From assembly GCF_033441515.1 (NCBI RefSeq), contig NZ_JAWQJT010000001.1:4340001-4404000 (forward strand): a stretch of 64,000 bases of DNA, given 5' to 3'. This stretch comes from Amycolatopsis solani. Lineage in GTDB: Bacteria; Actinomycetota; Actinomycetes; Mycobacteriales; Pseudonocardiaceae. The notes beneath the pieces are model-generated. The model made no database searches and had not been told where the DNA came from. It saw nothing but the letters and a program-made list of their open reading frames with translations. Positions 9,666 to 63,031 of this stretch are shown here, piece by piece (position 1 is the stretch's first letter; every line of letters begins with the position of its first letter). Both the position numbers and the translations under genes were made by a program.

Positions 9666-10079
9666 TCAGCGGGTCGAAGTCGGTGGGGTGAAAGTGAACG
9701 TAGGCACCGGGTCGGAGGGACCGTAAGCCGCGTAGGTGAACCAGATCTGGCCGAACGTCTTCGGCGCGGTCTGCGTGAACATCGCCCGCACCTGGAACGT
9801 GGTGGCCGTGTACGAGCCCTGCACCGTGTTGAGCATGAACGCGTTGAACGGCCCCGGCGTGTCGGCCGACACCACGACCGCCTCCGGCACCTTGCCGAGG
9901 CCGTGGGTGACCGTGCAGAAACCGCTTCCGTCCGTCACGCAGGTGGCTTGCGCCGCCTGCACGATCGGGGCCGGCGACGGGCCGACCGCGGCGGACGCGC
10001 CCGCGAAGGCCACCGCGCCCGCGGCGACGACGGCGGCGCCGCCCAGTGCGGCGAGTGCCGTCCGAACCTGAAGTGCCAT
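9666..10079 (-). CDS. Secreted protein of unknown function
   Basis: 137 residues from the ATG at 10079; the ATG at 10085 sits too close to its GGGGAGG. A clear Sec signal peptide (ALAALGGAAVVAAGAVAFAG) ends near ASA. The mature part is beta-rich (VTHGLGKVPEAVVVSADTPG, SYTATTFQVRAMFTQ), reminiscent of small H-type-lectin-like or phage tail-tip domains, with two cysteines likely disulphide-bonded. Location is extracellular; function unknown. Confidence 0.7.
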   Translation of the reverse strand: MALQVRTALAALGGAAVVAAGAVAFAGASAAVGPSPAPIVQAAQATCVTDGSGFCTVTHGLGKVPEAVVVSADTPGPFNAFMLNTVQGSYTATTFQVRAMFTQTAPKTFGQIWFTYAAYGPSDPVPTFTFTPPTSTR

Positions 10080-10240
10080 GTGCATCCTCCCCTGGAAACG
10101 ACTCCACCGAGATCGTTCCGCCGCTCGCCGCCGTTACGGCCGACTGTCCACTGTGCTCAGCTCGACGGGGTCCAGCCGGACCCGGGTGCCGCCGGGCGTA
10201 CGTGCGGTGCCCCATCAGCGGGGCCGCGGGAACTCATCGG

Positions 10241-11215
10241 TCAGGCGGGCACCAGTTCCCGCTCCGCCGCCGCGGCGTAGCGGCGGGCCAGCGTCGCGCA
10301 GACGATCAGCTGGATCTGGTGGAACAGCATCAGCGGCAGCACGATCAGCCCCACCTGCGCGTGCCCGAACAGCACCGTCGCCATCGGCAGGCCGCTCGCC
10401 AGGCTCTTCTTCGACCCGCAGAACACGATGGTGATCCGGTCCGCGCGCGCGAAGCCCAGCAGGCGGGCGCCCCAGCCGGTCGCGGCCAGCACGATCGCCA
10501 GCAGCACGCCGCACACCGCCACGAGCACCAGCAGGTGGCCCAGGTCGAGCCGGTGCCAGATGCCTTCGGTCATGCCCGCGCTGAACGCCGTGTAGACCAC
10601 CAGCAGGATCGAACCGCGGTCGACCACCTTCAGCGGCGCCGCGTGGCTCCGGATCCAGCCGCCGATCCAGCGCCGCGCCAGCTGGCCGGCCACGAACGGC
10701 GCGAGCAGCTGCAGCACGATCCCGAGCACGGCCGACCCGTCGACGCCGGCGCCGTCGCCCGCGAGCAGCAGCGCCACCAGCACCGGCGTGAGCACGATTC
10801 CGGCCAGGTTGGACAGCGACGCGCTGCAGATCGCCGCCGCGACGTTGCCGCGGGCGATCGAGGTGAACGCGATCGAGGACTGCACGGTCGAGGGCAGCAC
10901 GGCGAGGAACAGCACCCCGGCGGCCAGCTGGGCGGGCAGCACCGACGACGGCAACGCGAACAACGCGAGGCCGAGCAGCGGGAACAGCACGAACGTCGCG
11001 CCGAGCACGACCGCGTGGAGCCGCCAGTGCCGCAGCCCGTCGAGGGCTTCCTGCGTGGACAAGCGGGCGCCGTACAAGAAGAACAGCACCCCGACGGCGA
11101 TCGAGGTGGCGGTGCCGAAGCCGGCGGCCACCGCGCCCGAAGCGGGCAGCAGGGTGGCGACCCCGACGGTGGCGAGGATGGCGAGGACGAACGGGTCGAG
11201 ACGCAACCGGGACAT
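10241..11215 (-). CDS. SBF-like (bile acid:sodium symporter family) transporter
   Basis: A 324-residue integral membrane protein with about ten hydrophobic helices. LFFLYGARLSTQEALDG, VLPSTVQSSIAFTSIARGNVAAAI and ITIVFCGSKKSLASGLPMA are signature segments of the SBF-like family (related to YfeH). The substrate is unknown, probably an organic anion. It is divergent from a LysR regulator, with symmetrical DNA in the 96-bp gap, so it is likely that regulator's target. Confidence 0.88.
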   Translation of the reverse strand: MSRLRLDPFVLAILATVGVATLLPASGAVAAGFGTATSIAVGVLFFLYGARLSTQEALDGLRHWRLHAVVLGATFVLFPLLGLALFALPSSVLPAQLAAGVLFLAVLPSTVQSSIAFTSIARGNVAAAICSASLSNLAGIVLTPVLVALLLAGDGAGVDGSAVLGIVLQLLAPFVAGQLARRWIGGWIRSHAAPLKVVDRGSILLVVYTAFSAGMTEGIWHRLDLGHLLVLVAVCGVLLAIVLAATGWGARLLGFARADRITIVFCGSKKSLASGLPMATVLFGHAQVGLIVLPLMLFHQIQLIVCATLARRYAAAAERELVPA

Positions 11216-11265
11216 GGATCTCCTTCCACGGCCATTGTCGGCGCGCCCTCGTTCATTGTGAACCC

Positions 11266-11289
11266 CGATGACCGAACTGACTGTCATCG
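11266..11289. promoter_or_regulatory. Inverted repeat between transporter and LysR gene
   Basis: CGATGAC, 10 nt, GTCATCG: exact 7-bp arms, followed by an ATCGCGAT palindrome (11293-11300). TAAAGT at 11300-11305 ends 6 nt before the lysR GTG, suggesting a leaderless start. The arrangement fits a LysR site controlling both genes. Confidence 0.55.
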
Positions 11290-11311
11290 CGGATCGCGAT
11301 AAAGTGACCCC

Positions 11312-12145
11312 GTGCTGGACCCCCGCCTGTGCCGTTCCTTCCTCGCCGTCGCCGAGACGCGCAGCTTCACCGCGGCCGCGCGGCGGCTGGGCGTCGGCCA
11401 GCCGACCGTCAGCCAGCACGTCCGGCGGCTCGAGCGCGACTCCGGCGGGCTGCTGTTCGCCCGCGACACCCACACCGTCGAACTCACCGCGCGCGGGCAG
11501 GCGATGCTGGGGTTCGCGCAGACGATCGTCGACACCGAAGAACGCGCGGAGCGGCACTTCCGCGGCGCCGAACTGCGCGGGCGCGTCCGCTTGGGCGTAT
11601 CGGAGGACTTCGCGCTCGGCGAGCTGCCGGAGATCCTGCACCGGCTGCGCCGCAGTCACCCGCTGGTCGACGTCGAGCTGACGGTCGAGCTCTCGGACGT
11701 CCTGGCGCAGCGGCTGCGTGCCGGGCAGCTGGACCTGGTGCTGGGCAAGCGCCGCCCGGGCGCGCACCACGGGCGGCTGCTCTGGCGGGAGCCGCTGGTC
11801 TGGATCGGCTCGGCGGCCACGGTGCTGGAGCCGGGCCAGCCGGTGCCGCTGGTGCAGTACCCGATGCCGTCGATCACGCGGCAGCTGGCGGTGGAGTGCC
11901 TCGAACGCGCCGGCCTCGAGTGGCGCGCGGCGTGCCAGACGTCGAGCTTGACCGGCCTGCGCGCCGCGGCGGCGGCCGGGCTCGGCGTCACCCTGCACGC
12001 GCGCAGCCTGGTCCCGGCCGACCTCATCGAGCTCGACGGCCTGCCCGAACCCGGCGACATCGAGTTCATGCTGCTGGCGAGGGAGTCGATGGCCGGCCCC
12101 GCGGCGGCGCTGGCGGAGTTCGTGCTGGAGCGGGTGCGGCGCTGA
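11312..12145 (+). CDS. LysR-family regulator
   Basis: 277 residues with an N-terminal winged helix (FLAVAETRSFTAAARRLGVG, then QPTVSQHVRRLE) and a periplasmic-binding-like effector domain from about 90. It starts with GTG. Its divergence from the SBF-like transporter is the usual layout for a LysR regulator and its target. It converges with the SigD-like gene, with 1 bp between the stops. Confidence 0.92.
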   Translation: MLDPRLCRSFLAVAETRSFTAAARRLGVGQPTVSQHVRRLERDSGGLLFARDTHTVELTARGQAMLGFAQTIVDTEERAERHFRGAELRGRVRLGVSEDFALGELPEILHRLRRSHPLVDVELTVELSDVLAQRLRAGQLDLVLGKRRPGAHHGRLLWREPLVWIGSAATVLEPGQPVPLVQYPMPSITRQLAVECLERAGLEWRAACQTSSLTGLRAAAAAGLGVTLHARSLVPADLIELDGLPEPGDIEFMLLARESMAGPAAALAEFVLERVRR

Positions 12146-50926: not shown

Positions 50927-51916
50927 GTGACCCCTACTTCGGCGCAGGACATCCGGGCCGCGGCGGCGTTGCTCGCCTCGGCCACCGACGTGACGATCCT
51001 CGGCCACATCCGCCCGGACGCCGACGCGCTGGGCAGCGCGCTCGCCCTCGGCCGGGCCCTCGTCCAGCGCGGTGCGAAGGTGCGCGTCTCGTTCGGCGAG
51101 CCCGACGAGGCGCCCGAGACGCTGCGGTGGCTCGACGAGGACGGGCTGCTCACTCACCCGGACGACCTCCCGGCCACCGAACCTCTGCTGGTCTGCGTCG
51201 ACACGCCGACGCCGAAGCGGCTGGGCCGGCTCGCCGGGCGCGTCGAGACCGCCGGTGCCGTGCTGGTGATCGACCACCACGCCACCAACACCGGCTACGG
51301 CACCTGCCACGTCGTCGACGAGACGGCCGAGGCCAGCGCGATCCTGGTGTTCCGCATCCTGGACGAACTGGGCGCCGAATTGGACGAGCCGATCGCTCGC
51401 GGGATCTACGCCGGGATCGTCACCGACACCAGCGGGTTCCGCCGGGCGAGCCCGGAGACGCACCGGATGGCGGCGCGGCTCCTCGAGGCGGGCGTCGACG
51501 CCGAAGCCGTCGTACGGCGGATCGTCGACGAGCGCCCGTTCGCGTGGCTGCCGATGCTGTCGTCGGTGCTGAGCGGCGCCCGGCTGGAACCGGAAGCCGC
51601 GCGGGGCAAGGGTTTCGTGCACGCCGTGGTCGGCGTCGACGCGGCCGGGACGGTGCGGGCCGAGGAGGTCGAGTCGGTCGTCGACGTCGTCCGCTCGGTG
51701 CGCGAGGCCGCCGTCGCCGCGGTGCTCAAGCAGGACCTCGCCGACCCGGGGCAGTGGCAGATCTCGTTGCGCTCCATCGGGATCGACGTCTCGGCGGTCG
51801 CGGCGGAGTTCGGCGGCGGCGGGCACCGGCAGGCCGCGGGCTGCACGATCCCGGGCACCGCCGAGGAGGTCCTCGCGGGACTGCGCGCTGCACTGGAGCG
51901 GGCGCCACTCCTCTAA
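50927..51916 (+). CDS. nrnA: DHH/DHHA1 oligoribonuclease and pAp phosphatase
   Basis: 329 residues. TILGHIRPDADALGSAL, VCVDTPTPKR, VLVIDHHATNTGYG and AGIVTDTSGF are the DHH metal ligands; FGGGGHRQAAGC is the DHHA1 substrate motif. It degrades nano-RNAs and dephosphorylates 3'-phosphoadenosine 5'-phosphate. In mycobacteria it sits between rbfA and dinF; here both neighbours are displaced. Confidence 0.94.
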   Translation: MTPTSAQDIRAAAALLASATDVTILGHIRPDADALGSALALGRALVQRGAKVRVSFGEPDEAPETLRWLDEDGLLTHPDDLPATEPLLVCVDTPTPKRLGRLAGRVETAGAVLVIDHHATNTGYGTCHVVDETAEASAILVFRILDELGAELDEPIARGIYAGIVTDTSGFRRASPETHRMAARLLEAGVDAEAVVRRIVDERPFAWLPMLSSVLSGARLEPEAARGKGFVHAVVGVDAAGTVRAEEVESVVDVVRSVREAAVAAVLKQDLADPGQWQISLRSIGIDVSAVAAEFGGGGHRQAAGCTIPGTAEEVLAGLRAALERAPLL

Positions 51917-51952: not shown

Positions 51953-52037
51953 GCGCCCCAATGTGGCATTGGGTGCGTCAGACGCACCGAACGCCACATT
52001 GGGTGCGCTGGACGCACCGAACGCCACATTGGGGCGC
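51953..52037. repeat. Intergenic inverted/direct repeat element after nrnA
   Basis: Outer arms GCGCCCCAATGTGGC (51953-51967) and its exact complement (52023-52037). Inside, GACGCACCGAACGCCACATT recurs with a 30-bp period (51981 and 52011), and TGCGTC/GACGCA hairpins lie between. It could terminate nrnA, but its layered structure is more than a terminator needs. No gene is visible in the 276 bp between nrnA and the next start. Confidence 0.75.
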
Positions 52038-52192: not shown

Positions 52193-53050
52193 ATGAGCGA
52201 AGCGAAGCCGCTGACCGGGCCGGTGCGGAAAACGGGTCCAGGGTGGACCGCGGGACTGACCGTCCCGCGCGAACACCCCTTCTTCTTCGACCACCCGCTC
52301 GACCACCTGCCCGGCTCGCTCACCATCTGCGGCCTGCTCGACCTCGCCGAGTCGGTGACCGGGCGGCCGGGCGGGGCCGAGCGGCTGGTGCTCGACCTGC
52401 GCTTCCCGGCGATGGGCACGCTGGCCGGCCCGGTCGAGCTCGGTCTCGCCCCGGAACCGGGCGTGCCCGGGCAGTGGTCGCTGCTGGCCCAGCAGGCCGA
52501 CGCCGACATCTGCGCCGGGACCCTGCGGCGGGTCGCCGGTCTCGCCCGTCCGGCCGCGGCCCCGCACCCCGGCGACACCCGGGACGCGTTGTGTCCCAAG
52601 GACCTCGTGCACCGCGTCGACGAGGACAACATCGTGCTCGGCGTCCCGGCCGACGCCGGGGCGGAGGTCACCGCGCCGGCCCTGCTCGCCCGGCCGGGCC
52701 ACTACCTGGACTCCGGTGAGCCCGCTTTCTCGGCGCGCGGCCTGATCGAGTCGAGCCGGCAGTTCTTCACCGTGCTGGAGCACTGGGCGGCGGGCTGGTC
52801 CTACGGCACCACGGTCCTGTGGACGGCCTTCCACGCCGACCTGCCGGCGTCGCCGCCGAGCCCGGCGTACTCGTTCCGCTGGGTCCGCGAGCCGGTGAAG
52901 CGCACCAAGCTGGCCGTCTCGTTCGACCTGCTGGACGCCGGTGGCGTGGTCGCCGGCCGGTTCGAGTACGTCGCCATCACCGTCAGCGCCGCCGCGTACG
53001 AGCGGTTCCGCGCCGCGCGTGACCGCTTCTCCGGGGAGGCCGCCGCGTGA
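52193..53050 (+). CDS. AfsA-type hotdog protein with apparently permuted halves
   Basis: 285 residues. HPFFFDHPLDHLPGSLTICG (about 28-47) matches the motif found in the second repeat of AfsA/ScbA butyrolactone synthases. DLVHRVDEDNIVLGVP (about 140-155) followed by GLIESSRQFFTVLEHWAAG matches the first repeat. The two halves therefore appear in reverse order. AfsA condenses a beta-ketoacyl chain with dihydroxyacetone phosphate; whether this one does is unknown. ATG with AAGGAGG; first of seven overlapping genes. Confidence 0.82.
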   Translation: MSEAKPLTGPVRKTGPGWTAGLTVPREHPFFFDHPLDHLPGSLTICGLLDLAESVTGRPGGAERLVLDLRFPAMGTLAGPVELGLAPEPGVPGQWSLLAQQADADICAGTLRRVAGLARPAAAPHPGDTRDALCPKDLVHRVDEDNIVLGVPADAGAEVTAPALLARPGHYLDSGEPAFSARGLIESSRQFFTVLEHWAAGWSYGTTVLWTAFHADLPASPPSPAYSFRWVREPVKRTKLAVSFDLLDAGGVVAGRFEYVAITVSAAAYERFRAARDRFSGEAAA

Positions 53051-53688
53051 TCGGCCTCGTGCGGGTGAACCAGGTTCCCCGGCTCCTGTACTTCGTCATC
53101 GTCGCCGCGCTCGGCGTGGGCCTCGTGCTCCGCCTGCTGTCGGCCGCCGACCCGCGGTCCGCGGTCGCCGCCGGGTTCGTGCTGGTCCACCTGGTCTGGA
53201 TCGTCGCGGAATCGCGGATCACCTTCACCCCCGCCGGCACGTCGCCGCCCGACCCGACGGTGCTGCCCTACGGCTTCTCGCGCACCGTGGTCGTCGTCTC
53301 CGGCGCGCTCGGCCCGCTGCCGTGGGGCGGGATCGGCTGGTGGGTGCTGGCCCCCGCCGCCCTGTTCCTGGGCGGGATCGCGCTGCGGCTGCGGGCGATC
53401 GGCGAGCTCGGGCGGTTCTACACCCACCGCGTGCTGCGCCACGACGGCCACGAGGTCGTCACCACCGGGCCGTACCGCGCGGTCCGCCACCCGGCGTACA
53501 CCGGGATGCTGGTGGCCAGCGCCGGCTACACCGCCTACCTGTTCACCGTGCCAGGCGCCGTCGGGCTGGTGGTGCTCGCCGGTGCGCTGGTGTGGCGGAT
53601 CCGCGTCGAGGAACGGATGCTCTTCGGCGTCCCGGGGTACCCCGCGTTCGCCGCCGGCCGAGCCCGGCTGGTCCCGGGGGTGTGGTGA
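53047..53688 (+). CDS. ICMT/PEMT-like membrane methyltransferase
   Basis: 213 residues, 5-6 membrane helices. GRFYTHRVLRHDGHEVVTTGPYRAVRHPAYTGMLVASAG and VEERMLFGVPGYPAF are the SAM-binding signature of the isoprenylcysteine carboxyl methyltransferase family. Bacterial members methylate carboxyls or amines of lipids and small molecules. GTG overlaps the upstream stop (GTGA). Confidence 0.88.
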   Translation: MIGLVRVNQVPRLLYFVIVAALGVGLVLRLLSAADPRSAVAAGFVLVHLVWIVAESRITFTPAGTSPPDPTVLPYGFSRTVVVVSGALGPLPWGGIGWWVLAPAALFLGGIALRLRAIGELGRFYTHRVLRHDGHEVVTTGPYRAVRHPAYTGMLVASAGYTAYLFTVPGAVGLVVLAGALVWRIRVEERMLFGVPGYPAFAAGRARLVPGVW

Positions 53689-56294
53689 CCGTGGAGCTCC
53701 TGCGCGACGGCCCGCGGCTGACCGACCCCGCCGCCGTCGGGAACAAGTTCGCCCGCCAGGCCGAGCTCCGCGCCGCGGGCTTCCGGGTCCCGGAGTTCTT
53801 CTGCGTGCCGGTGGAGGCGTTCGACGCCGCTCTCGCCCGTGCGGCCGCCGAGGACCCCGCCGACCGGCGGCGGGTGCTGAGCCGCGGCGGGGTCCCGGAG
53901 CCGCTGGCCGGGCGGCTGCTGGCGGCGTTCGACGAGCTCGCCGGTCCGGACGGCGTGGTCGCCGTGCGCGCCTGCGTCGTCGGCGACGGGGAGGACAGCG
54001 CGGCCGACCCGTTCGCCGGGATGAGCGACAGCTTCCTGAACGTGGGCCGCGAGGCCCTGCTCGCCCGGGTCGCCGAGTGCTGGGCGTCCGCGTTCACCGA
54101 CCGGGCGGTGGCCTACCGGCGGCTGCGCGGCGCGGACCCGGGCGGGGCGCGGGTCGCGGTCGGCGTGCAGCGCATGGTGCCGGCGGCCCGCTCGTTCGTC
54201 GCGTTCAGCCGGGATCCGCGCACCGGGGCCGCGCACCACCTGGTCGCGGCCGCGTACGGCCTCGGCGAAGGCGTGGTTCAGGAGCTCGCCGACGTCGACC
54301 ACTTCGCGCACGACCCCGCGACCGGCCGCGTGACGCGCACGGTCGTGCCGAAGCACCGCATGGTCGCCCCCGATCCCGCCCGCGCGGGGGAGCCGCGGGT
54401 GACCGGAGTCCCGGCCGGGCTCCGCGCCGCACCGGTGTTGACCGACGCCGAGGTGCGGGCTATCGGCGCTCTCGCCGCGCGGGTGGCCGCGCACTTCGGT
54501 GCCCCGCAGGACATCGAGGGGGCCCTGACCGCGGACGGGACGATCGAACTCGTCCAGGCGCGCCCGATCGTCTTCGCCGGGGACGACCCGGCCCCCGCGT
54601 CCGGTGTCCTCTGGACCAACCACAACCTGACCGAGAGCTTCCCGGGCGTCACCTGCGCGCTCACCTACTCGCAGGCCCAGGAGTTCTACGAGGTCTGCTT
54701 CCGCGGGTTCTACCGCCGGATCGGCGTGCCCGCCCGGCGGCTCGACCGGCACGCCGGCGACCTCGCGCGGATGATCGGGCTGCTCGACGGGCGCGTCTAC
54801 TACCAGCTCGACGCCTGGTACCGGCTGCACGCCCTGATGCCGGGCTGGGGACAGCTGCGCCCGACGTGGCAGCGGACGCTGGGCCTGTCCGGCGACGAGC
54901 TCGACGACGCGCCGCCGCTGCCCCGGCACGGGTGGCTGACGACGCTCCGGGCGCTGCCCCGCGCGGTCGCGAGCCTGCTCGGGCACCCGCTCGCCGTGCG
55001 CCGCTTCCTGACGTGGTGGGACGATCTCGCCGCGGCCACCGGGCCGCTCGACGGCGTCGCGCCGGAGGAGCTGGTCCGCCGGTACCGCCGGATCTGGGCG
55101 GAGTTCGTCGGGCCGTGGCCGGTCACCCTGCTCAACGGCTACTTCCTGCTCGTCGGCCTGACCGTCACGCAACGGCTGCTGGCCCGCTGGACCGACGGCG
55201 ACCCGGCGCTGCTCGTCGGGCTGCTGCCCGGCGGCCCGGAGAACCGCTCGCTGCTGGCCCTGCGGTCGGCGTTGCGGCTGGCCACGCGCTTGCGGCGGGA
55301 CCCGCGGCTGGCCGCGGCGCTGGCGGACGGCACCGACCGGGAGGTGCACGACGCGATCGTCGGCGGCCGGTTCGGCAGCGACGTCGCCGAGGCGTTCGCG
55401 GAGCACCTGCGCCGGTACGGCGACCGGACCGTGCACGACCTGAAGCTCGAGGTCCGCACACCGCGCCAGGACCCGTGGCGGCTGATCGGCGTGCTGCGCC
55501 CGCTGGTGGCGAGCGGCGAGACCGCCGAGGGCAACCGCGCCGCGGAGCGCAACGCCCGCCGCGACGGCGTCCGGCGGCTGCGCCGGGCCTGCCCGAGCCC
55601 GGCGCGCCGGATCGCGCTCGGGCTCTGCGTGCGGGCGCTGCGGCGGTTCGTCAAGGCCCGCGAGGACACCCGGTTGTGCCGCAGTCAGCTCTACGGCGTC
55701 AGCCGCGACATCCTCTACCGGCTGGGTGCCGTCCTGGCCGCCGACGGCCGGCTCGCCGACGCCGGCGACGTCGTCCACCTGCGCGTGGACGAGGTGCTCG
55801 GCGCGATCGACGGCACGGGCGGGACGGCCGGGCTCGCGGACCTGGCCGCGCGGCGCCGGGCGGAACTCGAGGCGTGGCGCGAAAAACCCGCGCCGCCGGC
55901 CTACCTGTCCCCGGACGGCCCCGGCCGCGACGCCGCACGCAGCGGCCCCGCGCCGGGCGACGTCCTGCGGGGACTGGCGTCCAGCCGCGGCGTCGTCCGG
56001 GCCCGGGCGGCGGTGGTGCTCGACCCGACCGCCCCGGTCGAGGACTGCCGGGACCGCATCCTCGTCGCGCGCGAGACCGATCCCGGCTGGCTGTACCTGA
56101 TGACCGCGGCGAAGGGCATCGTCGTCGAACGCGGCAGCCTGCTGTCGCACACCGCGATCACCGGACGGCTGCTGGGCATCCCGACCGTGGTGGCCGTGCC
56201 CGGCGCCACCACCGCCATCGCCGACGGCGGCTGGATCGAGCTGGACGGCGCGGCCGGCACGGTCCGGCTGCTGCGCACAGAGGAGGTTGCCTGA
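53685..56294 (+). CDS. PEP synthase/rifampin phosphotransferase-like enzyme
   Basis: 869 residues. N-terminal ATP-grasp-like PPDK_N domain (VGNKFARQAELRAAGFRVPEFF; VAVRACVVGDGED..DPFAGMSDSFLNV; EGALTADGTIELVQARPIV). A long middle domain (310-760) of the kind that binds substrate in rifampin phosphotransferase follows. The C-terminal swivelling His domain has GSLLSHTAITGRLLGIPTVV with the catalytic His. It should transfer a phosphate from ATP via phospho-His to pyruvate or another acceptor. No PEP-binding barrel is evident, which favours a non-pyruvate acceptor. GTG overlaps the previous stop. Confidence 0.85.
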   Translation: MTVELLRDGPRLTDPAAVGNKFARQAELRAAGFRVPEFFCVPVEAFDAALARAAAEDPADRRRVLSRGGVPEPLAGRLLAAFDELAGPDGVVAVRACVVGDGEDSAADPFAGMSDSFLNVGREALLARVAECWASAFTDRAVAYRRLRGADPGGARVAVGVQRMVPAARSFVAFSRDPRTGAAHHLVAAAYGLGEGVVQELADVDHFAHDPATGRVTRTVVPKHRMVAPDPARAGEPRVTGVPAGLRAAPVLTDAEVRAIGALAARVAAHFGAPQDIEGALTADGTIELVQARPIVFAGDDPAPASGVLWTNHNLTESFPGVTCALTYSQAQEFYEVCFRGFYRRIGVPARRLDRHAGDLARMIGLLDGRVYYQLDAWYRLHALMPGWGQLRPTWQRTLGLSGDELDDAPPLPRHGWLTTLRALPRAVASLLGHPLAVRRFLTWWDDLAAATGPLDGVAPEELVRRYRRIWAEFVGPWPVTLLNGYFLLVGLTVTQRLLARWTDGDPALLVGLLPGGPENRSLLALRSALRLATRLRRDPRLAAALADGTDREVHDAIVGGRFGSDVAEAFAEHLRRYGDRTVHDLKLEVRTPRQDPWRLIGVLRPLVASGETAEGNRAAERNARRDGVRRLRRACPSPARRIALGLCVRALRRFVKAREDTRLCRSQLYGVSRDILYRLGAVLAADGRLADAGDVVHLRVDEVLGAIDGTGGTAGLADLAARRRAELEAWREKPAPPAYLSPDGPGRDAARSGPAPGDVLRGLASSRGVVRARAAVVLDPTAPVEDCRDRILVARETDPGWLYLMTAAKGIVVERGSLLSHTAITGRLLGIPTVVAVPGATTAIADGGWIELDGAAGTVRLLRTEEVA

Positions 56295-57487
56295 TGAGCG
56301 CCCCGTCGTTCCCGTTCGCCGAAGGACCCGGCCTCGAACCGCCGCCGGAGTACCGGGAGATCCTCGGCGCCGGCGCGCTGTGCCCGGTGACGCTGGCGGG
56401 CGGGCGGCCCGCGGTGCTCGCCACGCGCTTCGACGACGTGCGGACCGTGCTCGGCGACCCGAGGTTCAGCCGCGAGGCCCACGGCGCGTTGTTCGACCGC
56501 GAGGCCGGCTCGCTCGCGCTGCTGCTGACCGACCCGCCGGTGCACACCCGGCGGCGCCGGACGGTCGCGGCCGGCTTCACGGCGCGGCGGGCCGAGGCCG
56601 CGCGCCCGGGACTGGCCGCGCTGGCGGCCGAGCTGATCGCCGGGCTGCGGGCGCGGGGCACCGAAGCGGAGCTCGTCGAGGAGTTCGCGGTGCCGTTCAC
56701 GCTCGCGGTGATCAGCGATCTGCTCGGGGTGCCGGCCACGGACCGGGGCCGGTTCCGGCCGTGGGTCAACGCGATGATGTCGCGTGGCCACGCGTCGCCG
56801 GCGGAGGTCGCCGAGGGGCACCGCGCGATGCACGAGTACTTCACCGCGCTGGTCGACGAGATCTGGGCTGGCCGCGCCCCGCGCGAGGGCATCATCGCCG
56901 ACCTCGCCCCGGTTCCCGGCCGGGCGGACGAGCTTTCGCGCGAGGAAGCCATCGTGATGAGCGCCGGGCTGCTCGTCGCGGGCTACGAGTCGACGAGCAA
57001 CCAGCTCGCGTCGTGCGTCTACCTGCTGCTGACCGACCGCGCCCGCTGGGAGTCGCTGCGGGGCGAACCGGCGGCGCTCGACCGGGCGATCGAGGAGATG
57101 CTGCGCTGGACGTCGTTCACCACCGGCGGCGGCACCCCGCACGTCGCGACCGAGGACGTCCGGCTGACCGACCGGATGGTGCGCCGCGGCGAGGTGGTGG
57201 TGCCGCTGACCGACGCGGCCAACCGCGACGCCGAGGTGTTCGCCGACCCGCAGCGGCTGGACCTGGCCAGGGAACACAACCCGCACGTGGCGTTCGGTGC
57301 CGGGCGGCACCGGTGCCTCGGCGCCGAACTGGCGCGGGCCGAACTGCAGACCGGCCTCGCGGTCCTGCTGCGTGAACTGCCCGGACTCGAACTCGCGGTG
57401 CCCGAAGGGGCCCTGCGCTGGCGGAGGGAGATGCAGGTGAGCGGTTTGTGGGAGCTTCCGGTGCGCTGGGCGGGTGACGCGCGATGA
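56294..57487 (+). CDS. Cytochrome P450
   Basis: 397 residues. I-helix LLVAGYESTSNQLAS (AGYEST, Ser where Thr is usual), ExxR in IEEMLRWTS, heme-binding FGAGRHRCLGAELARAEL. It is a soluble class I bacterial P450 of the CYP105/107-like kind needing separate ferredoxin and reductase, which are absent from the operon. ATG overlaps the previous stop by 1 nt. Confidence 0.95.
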   Translation: MSAPSFPFAEGPGLEPPPEYREILGAGALCPVTLAGGRPAVLATRFDDVRTVLGDPRFSREAHGALFDREAGSLALLLTDPPVHTRRRRTVAAGFTARRAEAARPGLAALAAELIAGLRARGTEAELVEEFAVPFTLAVISDLLGVPATDRGRFRPWVNAMMSRGHASPAEVAEGHRAMHEYFTALVDEIWAGRAPREGIIADLAPVPGRADELSREEAIVMSAGLLVAGYESTSNQLASCVYLLLTDRARWESLRGEPAALDRAIEEMLRWTSFTTGGGTPHVATEDVRLTDRMVRRGEVVVPLTDAANRDAEVFADPQRLDLAREHNPHVAFGAGRHRCLGAELARAELQTGLAVLLRELPGLELAVPEGALRWRREMQVSGLWELPVRWAGDAR

Positions 57488-58599
57488 CCGAGCCCGCCAT
57501 CCCCGACGTGTACTTCACCGAGCGGCAGATCGCGGCGGTCCGCCACGTGGTCGAGCACCGCCTCGGCGGCGAGATCGAACTGGCGTACCTGGCCGGCAGC
57601 CTCGCCGTCGGCCTCGGGCACGGGACGTCCGATGTGGACGTCTACGCCGTCGGCGACCACCTGCCCGGCCAGGACCACGGCTACGAGCACGACGGCGTGC
57701 TGGTGCACGTGACCAAACTGGACGGTGCGCTGGTGCGCCGGCTGGCCGCGCTCGGCACCCGGTTCACCGCCACCGGCACCGACCGGGAGCAGTTCCTGCT
57801 CGAGTTCAAGGTGCTCAACGCGCTCGTCCGGCTGACCACCGGGCACCGGGTCAAGGTGGCCCCGGCCTGGCAGGACGTGCTCGCGCCGCTGCGCCGGGAC
57901 GTCGTGCGCCGGATCCTCGTCGCCCGGCACGCGAACATCTTCGCGGCCTTCGCCGAGGACGTCTGGGGCGCGCTGCTCAGCGGCGACCGCTACACCGCGG
58001 CGACGGCGTCCGCGATCGCGCTGGAGAACGCGGCGGAGGCACTGCTGGCGGCGGCCGACGACCTCTACGTCGGGCCGAAGTTCCTCTTCCGCAGGCTGCG
58101 GCGGACCGAGGCGACCGCGCCGTGGGCGGAGGAGCTGTGGCGGCTGCTCAACCAGGTCTTCGCCGCCGGGCTCGACGACGTCGAAGTCGTTGCAGCCCAC
58201 CGGCTGCGCGTCGGCAACCTGCTGCTGTCGTGGTGCGTGACGGAGGGCTGGGACAAGCCGCTCGCCCAGCTGCCCGCCCCGGCGGGGGAGACGTCCCGGC
58301 GCAGCCCCTTCTTCGCGCCGGTGCGGTTCTCCGAGGGCATCGCGCTGATGAGCGACGACGAGGCGTACGCGGTCGACGAATCGGTCGTGGCGGCCTGGCG
58401 CGACGCCGACCGCTTCGGCCTCGACGGCGGTGAGCTGTCCCCGGCCCTGCGCGGCCTGCTGGCGATCGGCGCGCTGGACGGCCCCGACCGGCCGGGCGCG
58501 GGCGCGCGCAACCCCCGGCTGCCCGCGGATCCGGCGGTGACCGCGCTGATCCGGGAGCAACCCGGGTACACGGTGCACCCGCAGGTCGCGCGCCCGTGA
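57484..58599 (+). CDS. Nucleotidyltransferase-fold protein of unknown function
   Basis: 371 residues. LAGSLAVGLGHGTSDVDVYAV (36-56) is a classic GS...DxD nucleotidyltransferase motif with Asp50 and Asp52 as metal ligands; a third Asp may be in EHDGVLVHVTKLD. The rest is helical (residues 130-250) and not recognised. It could adenylylate or otherwise nucleotidylate a small molecule or protein. ATGA overlap with the P450. Confidence 0.75.
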   Translation: MTEPAIPDVYFTERQIAAVRHVVEHRLGGEIELAYLAGSLAVGLGHGTSDVDVYAVGDHLPGQDHGYEHDGVLVHVTKLDGALVRRLAALGTRFTATGTDREQFLLEFKVLNALVRLTTGHRVKVAPAWQDVLAPLRRDVVRRILVARHANIFAAFAEDVWGALLSGDRYTAATASAIALENAAEALLAAADDLYVGPKFLFRRLRRTEATAPWAEELWRLLNQVFAAGLDDVEVVAAHRLRVGNLLLSWCVTEGWDKPLAQLPAPAGETSRRSPFFAPVRFSEGIALMSDDEAYAVDESVVAAWRDADRFGLDGGELSPALRGLLAIGALDGPDRPGAGARNPRLPADPAVTALIREQPGYTVHPQVARP

Positions 58600-59261
58600 C
58601 CGTCCGAAGTGGACCCGTCGTCGCGGTGGTCGGCGCCGACGGGGCCGGCAAGTCGACGGTGACGGCGCTGCTGGCCGAGCGGCTCACCGCCGCCGGCCAC
58701 GCGGCGGCGCGCGTCGACCGCTGGGACATCGCCGACGCCGTCCGGTACCCCACCGCGAGCTGCCTGACCGGCGACGTCGCCGTGGCGCGCCGGTGCGCTG
58801 CGCTGATGCCCGGCGTGCCCCGGCTGCTGTTCCTGCTGTGGGCTTCGGCGCTGGCGCTCACCGGCCGGCCGGCCGGGACCGGGGAGATCCTGCTGCTCGA
58901 CGGGCACTGGCAGAAGCACGCCGCGAGCGAAATCGCTTACGGCGCCGACGTGTCCTGGGTGGAGGCGGTCGGCGCGGGGCTGCCCGCCGCGGACCTCACC
59001 GTCCACCTCCGCATCGACCCCGAAGACGCGTGGGCGCGCAAGGACGGCCGGGCGGTGCCGTTCGAGTGCGGGATGGACCTGTCGTGCTCCCGGGAGAGTT
59101 TCCTGGCCCACCAGCGGTCGATCGCGGCCACGCTCGACCGCTGGGCGGCCCGCGATGGCTGGCTGGTCCTCGACGCCCGCACCCCGCCGGAGCGGCTGGT
59201 GGCGCGGCTCGTGCCCCGGGTGCTCGCCCTGACCGGCGCGGAAGCGAGGGACAGCGCGTGA
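58596..59261 (+). CDS. Thymidylate kinase-like P-loop kinase
   Basis: 221 residues. Walker A GADGAGKST (13-21), then an acidic base-binding DR pair region and a lid-like segment (LRIDPEDAWARKDGRAVPFECG). The fold is that of dTMP kinase, but substrate residues differ and length is slightly long, so it may phosphorylate a non-nucleotide metabolite. GTGA overlap with the previous gene. Confidence 0.8.
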   Translation: MTVRSGPVVAVVGADGAGKSTVTALLAERLTAAGHAAARVDRWDIADAVRYPTASCLTGDVAVARRCAALMPGVPRLLFLLWASALALTGRPAGTGEILLLDGHWQKHAASEIAYGADVSWVEAVGAGLPAADLTVHLRIDPEDAWARKDGRAVPFECGMDLSCSRESFLAHQRSIAATLDRWAARDGWLVLDARTPPERLVARLVPRVLALTGAEARDSA

Positions 59262-60079
59262 AGATCGGGCTGTGCGCGTTCCCCACCGACTACGGGATCG
59301 CGCCGGGCGCGCTGGCGGCCGCCGCGGAGGAACGCGGCTTCGAGTCGCTGTTCTTCTGCGACCACACGCACATCCCGGTGTCGCGCCGGACGCCGTACCC
59401 GCCCGGCGGCGCACTACCGCGGATGTACCTGCGCTCGCTCGACCTGTTCGGCGCGCTCACCGCGGCCGCGGCGGTGACCACCACGCTGCGGGTCGGCAGC
59501 GGCGTCTGCCTGGTGGTGCAACGGGATCCGATCGTCACGGCCAAGCAGGTCGCCACCCTCGACCTGCTCAGCGGCGGCCGGTTCCTCTTCGGCGTCGGCG
59601 CGGGCTGGAACCGCGAAGAGATGGCCCACCACGGCACCGACCCGCGCACCCGGATGCGGCTGCTCGCCGAGCGGGTGCGCGCGATGCGGGCCATCTGGAC
59701 CGAGGACGAGGCCGAGTTCCACGGCGAGTTCGTCGACTTCGACCCGCTCTGGTCGTGGCCGAAGCCCCGCCGCGTCCCGCCGGTGCTGGTCGGCGGCATG
59801 GGCCCGGGAGTGGAGGACCGCGTCCTCGCCTGGGGCGACGGCTGGCTGGCCCAGAACGTGACCGCGGACACGATCGGCGCCTTCGCCGTCCGCCTGGGCC
59901 GCCTGCGGGAGCGTGCCGGCGCGCCCGTGCCGGTGACGTTGTTCAACGGTGCCGCCGACCCGGCGATGCTGGCCCGCTACGCGGAGCTGGGCTTGGAACG
60001 GGTGTTGCTCCTGGTCCCGGACGCGGGCGCCGACGTGGTGCTCCCGCGGCTGGATCACCTGGCGGCGCTGGTCGCGTGA
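59258..60079 (+). CDS. LLM-class (F420-type) oxidoreductase
   Basis: 273 residues of the luciferase-like barrel. MKIGLCAFPTDYGIAP, FFCDHTHIPVSRRTPYP, VGSGVCLVVQRDPIVTAKQVATLDLLSGGRFLFGVGAGWN are signature of the actinobacterial F420-dependent group. It probably reduces a C=C or oxidises an alcohol in the pathway. Last of the seven coupled genes; GTGA overlap. Confidence 0.9.
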   Translation: MKIGLCAFPTDYGIAPGALAAAAEERGFESLFFCDHTHIPVSRRTPYPPGGALPRMYLRSLDLFGALTAAAAVTTTLRVGSGVCLVVQRDPIVTAKQVATLDLLSGGRFLFGVGAGWNREEMAHHGTDPRTRMRLLAERVRAMRAIWTEDEAEFHGEFVDFDPLWSWPKPRRVPPVLVGGMGPGVEDRVLAWGDGWLAQNVTADTIGAFAVRLGRLRERAGAPVPVTLFNGAADPAMLARYAELGLERVLLLVPDAGADVVLPRLDHLAALVA

Positions 60080-60160
60080 CCGGCGTCGGCCGGCGGGCCC
60101 GGAAAGTTCCGCCGTTCCCGCCGGTCAGGACTGTCGGTGGGGGCGGTTAGAGTCCGGTTC

Positions 60161-61483
60161 GTGGTGAACGTGGAGGAGACCGAGCGGGTGCCGGCGAAGC
60201 GCGTGCTGGGCCTGGCCGTGCCCGCGCTGGGGGTGCTGGCCGCCGAGCCGCTGTACGTGCTGGTCGACACCGCCGTGGTCGGGCACCTCGACGCGCTGTC
60301 GCTGGCGGGCCTCGCGCTCGGCGGGGTGGTGCTGGCGCAGGTGTCGAGCCAGCTGACGTTCCTGTCCTACGGCACGACGTCCCGCACGGCGCGCCTGCAC
60401 GGTGCTGGCCGCCGGGCGGACGCGGTCCGCGAAGGCGTCCAGGCGACGTGGCTGGCGCTGTTCGTCGGGTTCTTCGTGCTCGGCGCCGGGCAGCTGCTGG
60501 CGTGGCCGATCGCCCGCGCGCTCTCGGGCAGCGACGAGATCGCGTCCGCGGCCGTGTCGTGGCTGCGGATCGCGCTGTTCGGGGCGCCGCTGATCCTCGT
60601 CACGATGGCGGGCAACGGCTGGATGCGCGGGGTGCAGGACGCCGCGAAGCCGTTGCGGTACGTGCTGGCGGGCAACGGGATCTCGGCCGTGCTGTGCCCG
60701 GTGCTCGTCTACGGGGCCGGGCTCGGCCTGGAGGGCTCGGCGATCGCGAACGTCGTCGCGCAGGTGATCTCGGCGGCGCTGTTCTTCGCGGCGCTGGTGA
60801 AGGAGAAGGTGGGGCTGCGCCCGGACTTCAAGGTGATGCGCGCCCAGCTCGGCCTGGGCCGCGACCTGGTCCTGCGCAGCCTGGCGTTCCAGGCGTGCTT
60901 CGTCTCGGCGGCGGCGGTCGCGGCCCGCACGTCGACCGAAGCGGTCGGCGCCCACCAGGTGGTGCTGCAGCTGTGGACGTTCCTCGCGCTGGTCCTGGAC
61001 TCGGTGGCGATCGCGGCGCAGTCGCTGGTCGGCGCGGCCTTGGGAGCGAACTCGGCGCGGCAGGCCCGCGGGGTCGCCAACCAGATCACGGCGTACGGGC
61101 TGCTGCTGGGGTGCTTCCTGTGCGTGCTGTTCGCGGCGCTGTCGTGGGTGCTGCCGCACGCGTTCACGTCCGACCCGGGCGTACTGGCGGAGATCCCGCA
61201 CGCATGGTGGTTCTTCGTGGCCCTGCAGCCGATCGCGGGGGTGGTGTTCGCCCTGGACGGAGTGCTGCTCGGCGCTGGCGACGCGGCCTTCCTCCGCAAC
61301 GCGACCCTCGGCAGCGCGGCGCTGGGCTTCCTGCCGCTGATCTGGGCGTCCCTGGGCTTCGGCTGGGGCCTGACGGGGATCTGGACCGGGCTGTCGCTGT
61401 TCATGGTGATCCGGCTGGCGTTCGTGGTGGCCCGCTGGCGCTCCGGCACCTGGGCGGTGACGGGCGCGATCCGCCCGGCCTGA
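60161..61483 (+). CDS. dinF: DinF-like MATE family exporter
   Basis: 440 residues, 12 membrane helices in two homologous halves (PLYVLVDTAVVGHLDALSLAGLALG at the start; GAHQVVLQLWTFLALVLDSVAIAAQSL in the second half). Proton- or sodium-driven export of cationic or aromatic compounds is likely. TAGAGT (60148-60153) ends 7 nt before GTG 60161: leaderless promoter. In mycobacteria dinF directly follows nrnA; here the seven-gene operon intervenes. Confidence 0.9.
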   Translation: MVNVEETERVPAKRVLGLAVPALGVLAAEPLYVLVDTAVVGHLDALSLAGLALGGVVLAQVSSQLTFLSYGTTSRTARLHGAGRRADAVREGVQATWLALFVGFFVLGAGQLLAWPIARALSGSDEIASAAVSWLRIALFGAPLILVTMAGNGWMRGVQDAAKPLRYVLAGNGISAVLCPVLVYGAGLGLEGSAIANVVAQVISAALFFAALVKEKVGLRPDFKVMRAQLGLGRDLVLRSLAFQACFVSAAAVAARTSTEAVGAHQVVLQLWTFLALVLDSVAIAAQSLVGAALGANSARQARGVANQITAYGLLLGCFLCVLFAALSWVLPHAFTSDPGVLAEIPHAWWFFVALQPIAGVVFALDGVLLGAGDAAFLRNATLGSAALGFLPLIWASLGFGWGLTGIWTGLSLFMVIRLAFVVARWRSGTWAVTGAIRPA

Positions 61484-61705
61484 CCCGCTCTGTGCCCGGC
61501 TGCCCCCACGACCGCGGGCCGCCCCGTTCACCCGTCCGAGCGACGCCCCCCGGCAACACCCTGACCACGTGTGACGCCCCCGACCCTGTGGCGAAAACCA
61601 CCCGGATAACGGCTATGTTTCGCCGTTGCTTAGGCGATACAAGTAGTAGGGACGGCAGCGCAGGCGTTCCACGCCCCGAACACCGCCGAACCCCTGGAGG
61701 TCATC

Positions 61706-63031
61706 GTGCCGCCCGCCACCGGCCGCGCCACCGCACGGTCCTGGCTCATCTGGCTCGCCGCCGTCACCGTCTACCTCCTCGCGGTCTTCCACCGCACCTC
61801 CTTCGGCGTCGCCGGGCTGCAGGCGGCCGAACGGTTCGGAGTCGGGGCCGCCGCGCTCGGCACCTTCACCGTCCTCCAGGTCGGCGTCTACGCCGCGATG
61901 CAGATCCCGACCGGGGTCCTGGTCGACCGCTACGGTCCCCGTCGCGTCCTCATCGCCGCCGTGCTGATCCTCGGGGCCGGGCAGCTCCTGCTCGGCATCG
62001 CGCACTCCTACGGCCTCGGCCTGCTCGCCCGCGGCGTCCTCGGACTCGGCGACGCGCTGACCTTCGTCAGCGTGCTGCGCCTGGTCGCGGCCCACTTCCC
62101 GGGCCGCCAGTACGCGCTGCTGACGTCGTTCACCGCCGCCGTCGGCTACATCGGCAACCTCGCCGCCACCGTTCCGCTGTCGCTGCTGCTCGACGTCTCC
62201 GGCTGGACCCCCACCTTCCTCGCCGTCGGTGCCCTCACCGTGCTCTACACGCTGGTCGTGGCGCTGCGGGTCCGGGACGTCCCGGACGGCGAAGCGCAGC
62301 CCGCCCGCGAGCAGGTCCGCCCGCGCCAGCTCGCCCACCAGGTCGCCGAAGCCTGGCGGACGCCGGGGACGCGGCTGGGCTTCTGGGTCCACTTCAGCAC
62401 GATGTTCGCCCCGAACGCGCTGACGCTGCTGTGGGGCGTCCCCTGGCTGGTCCAGGGCCAAGGGCAGTCGAAGGCCGCCGCGAGCGCGCTGCTCACCGTG
62501 TTCGTCTTCGGGTCGATGGCGGGCGGGCCGCTGCTCGGCGGCGTGATCGGCAGGCACCCGTCGCTGCGGATGCCGCTGGTCGGCGGGTACATCGGCGGGG
62601 CCGCGCTGATCTGGGCGGTGCTGCTGAGCTGGCCCGGCACCGTTCCGGTGCCGGTGCTCGTGCCCGCGTTCGCCTTCCTCGCCCTCGGCGGCCCGGCGTC
62701 GATGATCGGGTTCGCGCTCGCCCGCGACTACAACCCGCTCTCCCGTGTCGGCACCGCGACCGGCGTGGTCAACGTCGGCGGGTTCGTGGCGACCACGATC
62801 GCCGCGCTCGCCGTCGGCGTGCTGCTGGAGTGGACCGGCGGGAACTTCCGGCTGTCGCTGCTGGCGATCGTCGCGATCCTCGCCGTGGGCACCTCCCGGA
62901 TGCTCGTCTGGTGGCGCCGCACCCGCGCCCACCTGTTCCTGGCCGAGGCCCGCGGCGAGGAGCTGCCGGTCCGGATCACGCGCCGCCGCTGGGACGCCGC
63001 ACTACCGGAGACGCCGATCGTCGCCGCCTGA
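61706..63031 (+). CDS. MFS transporter
   Basis: 441 residues, 12 membrane helices. GVLVDRYGPRRVLIAAVLILGAGQLLLG is the first MFS loop and RTSFGVAGLQAAERFGV the first helix exit, resembling the nitrate/sulfonate-like MFS branch. Substrate unknown. GTG with GGAGG 5 nt upstream. The 220 bp before it hold no gene and no clear promoter I can name. Confidence 0.88.
   Translation: MPPATGRATARSWLIWLAAVTVYLLAVFHRTSFGVAGLQAAERFGVGAAALGTFTVLQVGVYAAMQIPTGVLVDRYGPRRVLIAAVLILGAGQLLLGIAHSYGLGLLARGVLGLGDALTFVSVLRLVAAHFPGRQYALLTSFTAAVGYIGNLAATVPLSLLLDVSGWTPTFLAVGALTVLYTLVVALRVRDVPDGEAQPAREQVRPRQLAHQVAEAWRTPGTRLGFWVHFSTMFAPNALTLLWGVPWLVQGQGQSKAAASALLTVFVFGSMAGGPLLGGVIGRHPSLRMPLVGGYIGGAALIWAVLLSWPGTVPVPVLVPAFAFLALGGPASMIGFALARDYNPLSRVGTATGVVNVGGFVATTIAALAVGVLLEWTGGNFRLSLLAIVAILAVGTSRMLVWWRRTRAHLFLAEARGEELPVRITRRRWDAALPETPIVAA

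Follow-up and report, generated by a model that had tools for sequence, protein, structure and literature searches.

The 64,000-nucleotide stretch of Amycolatopsis solani analysed here (the window) is part of contig C1 of an assembly of 10.28 Mb and carries, at 52193-60079, seven open reading frames (ORFs) on the + strand, which overlap successively by 4, 4, 1, 4, 4 and 4 bp. The first (52193-53050, 285 aa) encodes an AfsA-related double-hotdog protein (PF03756), the halves of which stand in the reverse of the order found in ordinary AfsA-type proteins. It is followed by an ICMT/PEMT-type membrane methyltransferase (53047-53688, 213 aa; PF04140, 58.3 bits) with an RHPAYTG motif, and by an 869-aa phosphohistidine enzyme (53685-56294; hereafter PPDK), which combines a PPDK_N domain (PF01326, 165.3 bits) with a PEP-utilizers domain (PF00391, 74.6 bits) and the histidine motif ERGxxxSHTA. 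Downstream are a cytochrome P450 (56294-57487, 397 aa; PF00067, 83.1 bits; haem motif FGAGRHRCLG), a small-molecule-type nucleotidyltransferase (NTase; 57484-58599, 371 aa), a thymidylate-kinase-type P-loop kinase (TMPK; 58596-59261, 221 aa; PF02223, 29.0 bits, cut-off 27) with the P-loop GADGAGKST, and an F420-dependent luciferase-like (LLM) oxidoreductase (59258-60079, 273 aa; Pfam luciferase-like, 148.6 bits; TIGR03619, 247 bits, cut-off 167).

No Pfam or NCBIfam model matches the NTase at 0.01, and it is assigned from the fold of its model and from its kinship with the N-terminal part of a salinipostin gene, described below. It carries the motif GSLAVGLGHGTSDVD, and its AlphaFold model (predicted local distance difference test, pLDDT, 92) is nearest to the ANT(4'')/kanamycin nucleotidyltransferases (E ~1e-5, with a modest TM score of 0.4-0.57); among solved structures, its profile gives weak MNT matches only. 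The PPDK finds its top NCBIfam match in the PEP-synthase model, at 502 bits and under the cut-off of 883. The RedH/PigC prodigiosin ligases and rifamycin phosphotransferase contain ATP-grasp and phosphohistidine domains as it does, but their models give only 289 and 232 bits (RedH/PigC) and 256 bits (rifamycin phosphotransferase), and the respective cut-offs of 1350, 1300 and 999 are not reached. An earlier note on this DNA had described a coupled operon of seven genes with overlaps of 1-4 bp and had named these families, which the ORFs, the Pfam and NCBIfam scans and the NTase model bear out. The seven ORFs are real genes, since another genome of the genus (G684) keeps all of them at 87-94% identity and at the same site, with dN/dS values of 0.10-0.31 by a simple counting method. 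A simple gene caller, trained on these same genes, recovered all seven, two of them with other starts. Upstream of the operon, scans for a sigma-70 promoter and for a terminator found none.

The gene set recurs as a unit. Eighteen operons were read, those of the window and G684 included. The others come from Micromonospora chaiyaphumensis (L004), a Streptosporangiaceae bacterium (L005), Lentzea (L007), a plasmid of Streptomyces durmitorensis (L018), eight further Micromonosporaceae genomes with nine operons (G434, G481, G485, G498, G529 twice, G581, G633 and G638), and three genomes of one family (G854, G992 and G1046, one operon each). The G638 operon spans two contigs (L075, L211) and is counted as one. 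Genes for the hotdog protein, ICMT, PPDK and P450 are present in 18 of the 18; as the operons were found via the hotdog protein, NTase or PPDK, the query gene is present by construction, but the other core genes are not. The earlier note held that recurrence of the genes only individually, in unrelated contexts, would speak against its reading; the set is instead found together throughout these operons. The motifs are also well kept: the histidine motif in all 27 AfsA-linked PPDKs examined, the haem cysteine motif in 18/18 P450s (the leading F being replaced in four), RHPxYxG in 17/18 ICMTs (CHPAYTG in that of Lentzea), and the NTase motif and the P-loop in all six operon NTases and all six operon kinases, respectively.

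Other genes vary between operons. A nitroreductase gene occurs in 13 of the 18, the window and G684 carrying the F420 enzyme instead, while both G529 copies and G581 have neither in the span read. One type of KASIII-like gene is found in 12/18; the window operon is without it, and no close copy was found elsewhere in the window's genome (best match 34%). One of the two G529 copies (L070, on contig G529:C27) has a disrupted PPDK that matches residues 2-262 and 828-868 only, the other copy (L071) having a full-length PPDK.

The searches behind this sample differed in breadth. With the NTase, 9 of 397 genomes of the order matched, three strongly, and a search of genome contigs gave at least six loci, three of those six holding the operon. 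With the hotdog protein, 10 of 330 Micromonosporaceae genomes matched at E <=1e-8, one of these matches (G552) being an ordinary AfsA. Among 80 genomes of the genus, 25 matched the hotdog profile at E <=1e-10, in full length only in the window's own genome (G000) and in G684, and by halves only in the other 23; of 394 genomes across the class, 49 gave a match at 1e-10, four of them in full length, own genome included. The PPDK search of plasmids gave 17 records, 16 of which are Streptomyces clavuligerus plasmid records, one of them read. Relatives of the NTase also occur where no hotdog gene is found: together with a TMPK (L003), alone (L006/L066), or as a distant relative (L008). The first of these counter-cases is an NTase-TMPK pair of Streptosporangium carneum (9965-11823), with no match to the hotdog protein, PPDK or ICMT in the 21 kb read.

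The hotdog protein exceeds the PF03756 cut-off (34.2 against 24 bits) and stays far below that of NF041195, the ScbA-type equivalog (44.2 against 200). Positions 198-265 of the latter model align to residues 22-89 of the protein. With profiles made from its two halves, the order half1-half2 was found in 18 proteins, one per operon, and half2-half1 in 55 others, which include the AfsA genes of the salinipostin loci; duplicates were removed from this count, and three proteins with overlapping hits and six with a single hit were left out. Judging from this order of its sequence halves, the hotdog protein is a domain-order swap of an AfsA-type protein, confined to this operon family in the sample read. 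Its structural model has a double-hotdog fold (pLDDT 82.5, with residues 31-39, a conserved loop, under 50). An AfsA-type protein would thus seem to tolerate a changed domain order, and the reversed form serves as a genomic marker of the family as a whole. The genome of the window holds a second AfsA-domain gene (10036-10833 of L077, at ~568354 of G000:C2), which the hotdog profile matches with one half-hit only and which has HAD-like and alcohol-dehydrogenase-like neighbours, assigned by eye. Outside the actinomycetes, a weak half-length match (E 1e-4) lies at 61261-61743 of plasmid NZ_CP080783.1 of Aliiroseovarius crassostreae, and falls in an annotated AfsA-related gene.

Of the systems described so far, the salinipostin (spt) cluster comes nearest. 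A nine-gene run in genome G224 (L078) is taken by us to be the spt cluster of Salinispora tropica CNB-440. It encodes, in order, PPDK, AMP-binding, NTase-containing, acyl carrier protein (ACP), NAD_binding_4, NDK, UbiA, LLM and AfsA proteins, and its genes are numbered here from 1 to 9 in that order (gene 3 being NTase-containing, gene 7 UbiA-like and gene 8 LLM). The run agrees with the spt entry RS20900-RS20940 of 11.1 kb, as far as the accessible part of its source describes it (PMC7888443). The functions of the spt genes are not stated in the accessible parts of PMC8609351 or PMC11095149.

Three genes suggest a kinship between the two systems. In a tree built from 33 PPDK rows, the enzymes of operons with the permuted hotdog group together (support 86/85) and are joined successively by those of three clusters with an ordinary AfsA (99/100), by the S. 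clavuligerus type (99/100) and by spt (91/96), with six paralogues apart; the PPDKs of the window and spt are 30-31% identical. The disrupted L070 PPDK and fragments in L063, L064 and L075 were omitted from the PPDK trees, as were two partial paralogues from the second tree. The NTase profile matches spt gene 3 over 282 columns (hhalign Prob 96.3, E 1.7e-9), the proteins measuring 371 aa in the window and 558 aa in spt and sharing 25% identity. The third link lies in sister operons, the UbiA-like genes of which are 32-40% identical to spt gene 7 in the 11 loci tested; a profile of ten matches this gene with an hhalign Prob of 99.8, and the twelfth (L211) shares 65% identity with one of the other 11. 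When the 330 Micromonosporaceae genomes were searched with the UbiA profile, 20 places in 19 genomes were found, and all 20 were read. Every one adjoins a PPDK gene, disrupted in one case. At 19 places an AfsA-domain gene follows or precedes on the same contig at a distance of no more than 6.5 kb; the twentieth is on a 5-kb contig. Because nine of the 20 were rows of the search profile, 11 places are independent; all 11 are beside a PPDK gene and 10 are near an AfsA-domain gene.

The two systems have in common an AfsA-domain gene, a PPDK with its conserved histidine, an NTase domain, an LLM oxidoreductase and a tight single-strand operon, to which the sister operons add the UbiA-like gene. However, the window has no AMP ligase, ACP, NAD-binding reductase, NDK-like or UbiA gene; it adds ICMT, P450 and TMPK-like genes, its AfsA halves are reversed, and the gene order is different. 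The AMP ligase, ACP, NAD-binding_4 reductase and NDK-like genes of spt gave no match in the window or in the other 17 operons. An orthologous relationship was rejected, as the gene sets differ and only the PPDK, the LLM protein and part of the hotdog protein initially matched S. tropica. By gene content and sequence kinship, the operon is best described as a distant cousin of the spt cluster, and not as that cluster. Resemblance between the LLM proteins was likewise discarded as a sign of kinship with spt, another LLM of the same genome being closer.

Further clusters belong to this neighbourhood. Nine-gene spt orthologues, with PPDKs 75-76% identical to that of spt, occur in three genomes of the Micromonosporaceae genus g109 (L208, L209 and L210), which lies outside the genus group containing G224. 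A plasmid of S. clavuligerus (L019, 8372-15050) holds an AfsA-ICMT-PPDK-UbiA-like cluster with an alcohol-dehydrogenase-type gene, and 15 more S. clavuligerus records match the same PPDK query. This cluster and L207 resemble the window operon in their ICMT, PPDK (43-45%), UbiA-like and AfsA-domain genes; in contrast, their AfsA protein gives a single half-hit, and they have no P450, NTase or TMPK match. Three other clusters (L204, L205 and L206) combine a window-type PPDK (49-51%) with UbiA-like, P-loop-kinase-like, ordinary AfsA, KASIII-like, ACP-like and HAD-like genes, and a DUF6182 gene was found in the two tested; they are apparently another branch of the class.

Within the 18 operons, the NTase+TMPK pair and the UbiA-like gene exclude each other: the pair is present in six and the UbiA-like gene in 12, with no operon holding both or neither, and spt gene 7 has no match in the window. 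The PPDK tree, which includes 17 of these operons, requires at least three switches between the two states, and the two modules have therefore taken each other's place repeatedly. They are not put forward as exact equivalents, because an NTase domain and UbiA occur together in spt, and because L204-L206 pair UbiA with a gene that looks like a P-loop kinase, its Pfam match (AAA_33) scoring below the cut-off. An additional gene is shared by two UbiA-type operons (L068, 4441-5475; L069, 16135-17148), with 85% identity between the copies; that of L069 is a polyprenyl-synthetase relative by Pfam, which hints at a prenyl donor.

In A-factor biochemistry, an AfsA-type enzyme gives an acyl-butenolide that still holds the phosphate of dihydroxyacetone phosphate (DHAP). 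Tentatively, and with slightly more doubt than belief, the operon can be placed in the salinipostin class (AfsA plus PPDK) as a separate subtype whose product retains this phosphate. What the analysis establishes is the genes with their families, motifs, co-occurrence, low dN/dS and kinship with spt genes; each chemical step and the product are our inference. The swapped hotdog protein would join a beta-ketoacyl-ACP to DHAP, giving a phosphate-bearing acyl-butenolide, the ring of which would be reduced to a gamma-butyrolactone by the F420 enzyme, which stands where most relatives have a nitroreductase. No phosphatase family was found among the seven operon proteins in the Pfam and NCBIfam scans, while three of them (PPDK, NTase and kinase) handle phosphate, and the phosphate would therefore stay on the product. 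It may then be activated by the NTase, the kinase and the phosphohistidine PPDK, and most likely forms a ring with the acyl group's enol oxygen, giving a cyclic enol phosphate. The ICMT-type methyltransferase might add a methyl cap to the phosphate, like that of cyclophostin, instead of an alkyl chain, the spt-specific genes (AMP ligase, ACP, reductase and UbiA) being taken to supply that of spt; the P450 would decorate the product. The likeliest product is thus probably a phosphate-retaining gamma-butyrolactone, perhaps methyl-capped like cyclophostin, although the methyl cap itself is doubtful.

Known compounds give this proposal a chemical frame. Cyclophostin, the cyclipostins and the salinipostins are described, in the accessible part of one source, as lactone-fused cyclic enol phosphates which differ in their phosphorus ester group, a P-OMe in cyclophostin and a longer phosphate ester in the two others, and a common origin of these phosphates with A-factor has been suggested there (PMC6681047). 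The predicted product type is similar, and a methyl cap would fit the ICMT, cyclophostin and the cyclipostins being compared by product only. No gene cluster for either was found in the open literature searched; a cyclipostin is reported in a metabolome, according to the accessible part of PMC10686133. The A-factor/ScbA pathway itself is matched by the hotdog family, PF03756 being over its cut-off, but the operon departs from it in the reversed domain order, the score far under the NF041195 cut-off, the missing phosphatase, and the presence of PPDK, NTase and kinase.

Several observations weigh against a phosphate-retaining relative of salinipostin. The spt PPDK joins the tree under a strict threshold (91/96, and 64/98 in an earlier tree with fewer rows). 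The LLM protein resembles spt gene 8 at family level only (29-31%), less than it resembles another LLM of its own genome (38.7%). The hotdog protein remains far from the ScbA-type cut-off (44 versus 200), and its reversed halves might point to a different substrate. Sister operons with UbiA in place of NTase and kinase keep the ICMT, so that methyl in place of alkyl fails to account for the family as a whole. The usual targets of ICMT enzymes are carboxylates. Nor is there a place for the P450 in cyclophostin itself. Moreover, we know of no product or enzyme activity for any member of the family.

The exchange of modules lends itself to a reading within the same class but with another cap, which is rather unlikely: phosphate-retaining butyrolactones, made by a swapped AfsA confined to this operon family in the sample, would be methylated in both subtypes and capped either by a lipid, through the UbiA-like enzyme of the sister operons, or by a nucleotidyl or further phosphoryl group, through the NTase and kinase. 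The mutual exclusion in the 18 operons and the repeated switches on the tree agree with this, as do the likeness of the NTase model to small-molecule adenylylating enzymes (with a weak TM score) and the extra gene shared by two UbiA-type operons. Nevertheless, the two modules are no strict equivalents in spt, where both occur, and the gene with the look of a P-loop kinase stands beside UbiA in L204-L206. Another explanation, which we consider unlikely, takes the hotdog protein for a double-hotdog enzyme of the dehydratase or thioesterase kind instead of an acyl-DHAP synthase, the operon then making some other phosphorylated lipid. The best PDB matches of the model in Foldseek are indeed polyketide synthase (PKS) dehydratase domains, and the hotdog profile matched no solved chain by sequence; the low NF041195 score and the reversed order point the same way. 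However, PF03756 is exceeded, both halves match, in swapped position, the halves of ordinary AfsA proteins in 55 genes, and related PPDK and UbiA genes accompany ordinary AfsA genes.

Finally, the operon could make a plain gamma-butyrolactone signal, with housekeeping phosphatases stripping the phosphate and the extra genes tailoring the side chain. By analogy with known pathways, an AfsA-type hotdog protein, a reductase and a P450 would be enough for a decorated butyrolactone, and the spt cluster is said, in a 2020 ACS Chem Biol paper, to make A-factor-like lactones as well, which counts in favour. This explanation nevertheless leaves no work for the PPDK, kept in 18 of 18 operons, nor for the NTase and kinase, kept in 6/6 of their subtype, and it is improbable.

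The proposal of the earlier note, a coupled operon for a small phosphorylated and possibly signalling metabolite, is supported. Its statement that no described pathway has this set holds for the exact combination, absent from the literature searched, outside which most subscription papers lie; it does not hold for relatives, as spt shares the AfsA gene, PPDK, NTase domain and LLM protein with the window, and the UbiA-like gene with the sister operons. The suggestion that cluster-calling rules may miss the operon is doubtful, as PF03756 is over its cut-off and antiSMASH has an AfsA-based butyrolactone rule. Natural phosphotriesters are, to our knowledge, rare, and the steps at stake here are the closing and capping of their phosphate. 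Since the family keeps the AfsA-PPDK core and swaps the lipid-chain genes for ICMT, P450 and NTase plus kinase, each step could be assigned by comparison and deletion.

The operon is flanked by a gene that the earlier note had called nrnA (50927-51916, + strand), outside the operon and marking the left border, and by a MATE/DinF-type transporter gene (60137-61483, + strand; PF01554), a conserved neighbour on the right border that is probably not an operon member. The nrnA-type gene was searched in 30 genomes of the genus and matched in 29, leaving 28 loci after the window's own was dropped. In tblastn, the nrnA-MATE gap measures 40-174 bp in nine of these loci and 425-1303 bp in 11, and no MATE gene is found within the stretch read in the remaining eight; next to the closest nrnA relative (94% identical), the gap is 60 bp. 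The hotdog protein, ICMT, PPDK, NTase and TMPK have no match in any of the 28. As the gap is short in nine of these loci and the five genes are missing from all 28, the operon is, on this comparison, an insertion between the nrnA-type and MATE genes. A role of the MATE protein as exporter of the cluster was rejected, since its gene also adjoins nrnA where a genome lacks the operon. Between nrnA and the first operon gene (51957-52033), a 23-base repeat occurs three times, two copies being direct and exact and one inverted with two mismatches, where none is expected by chance.

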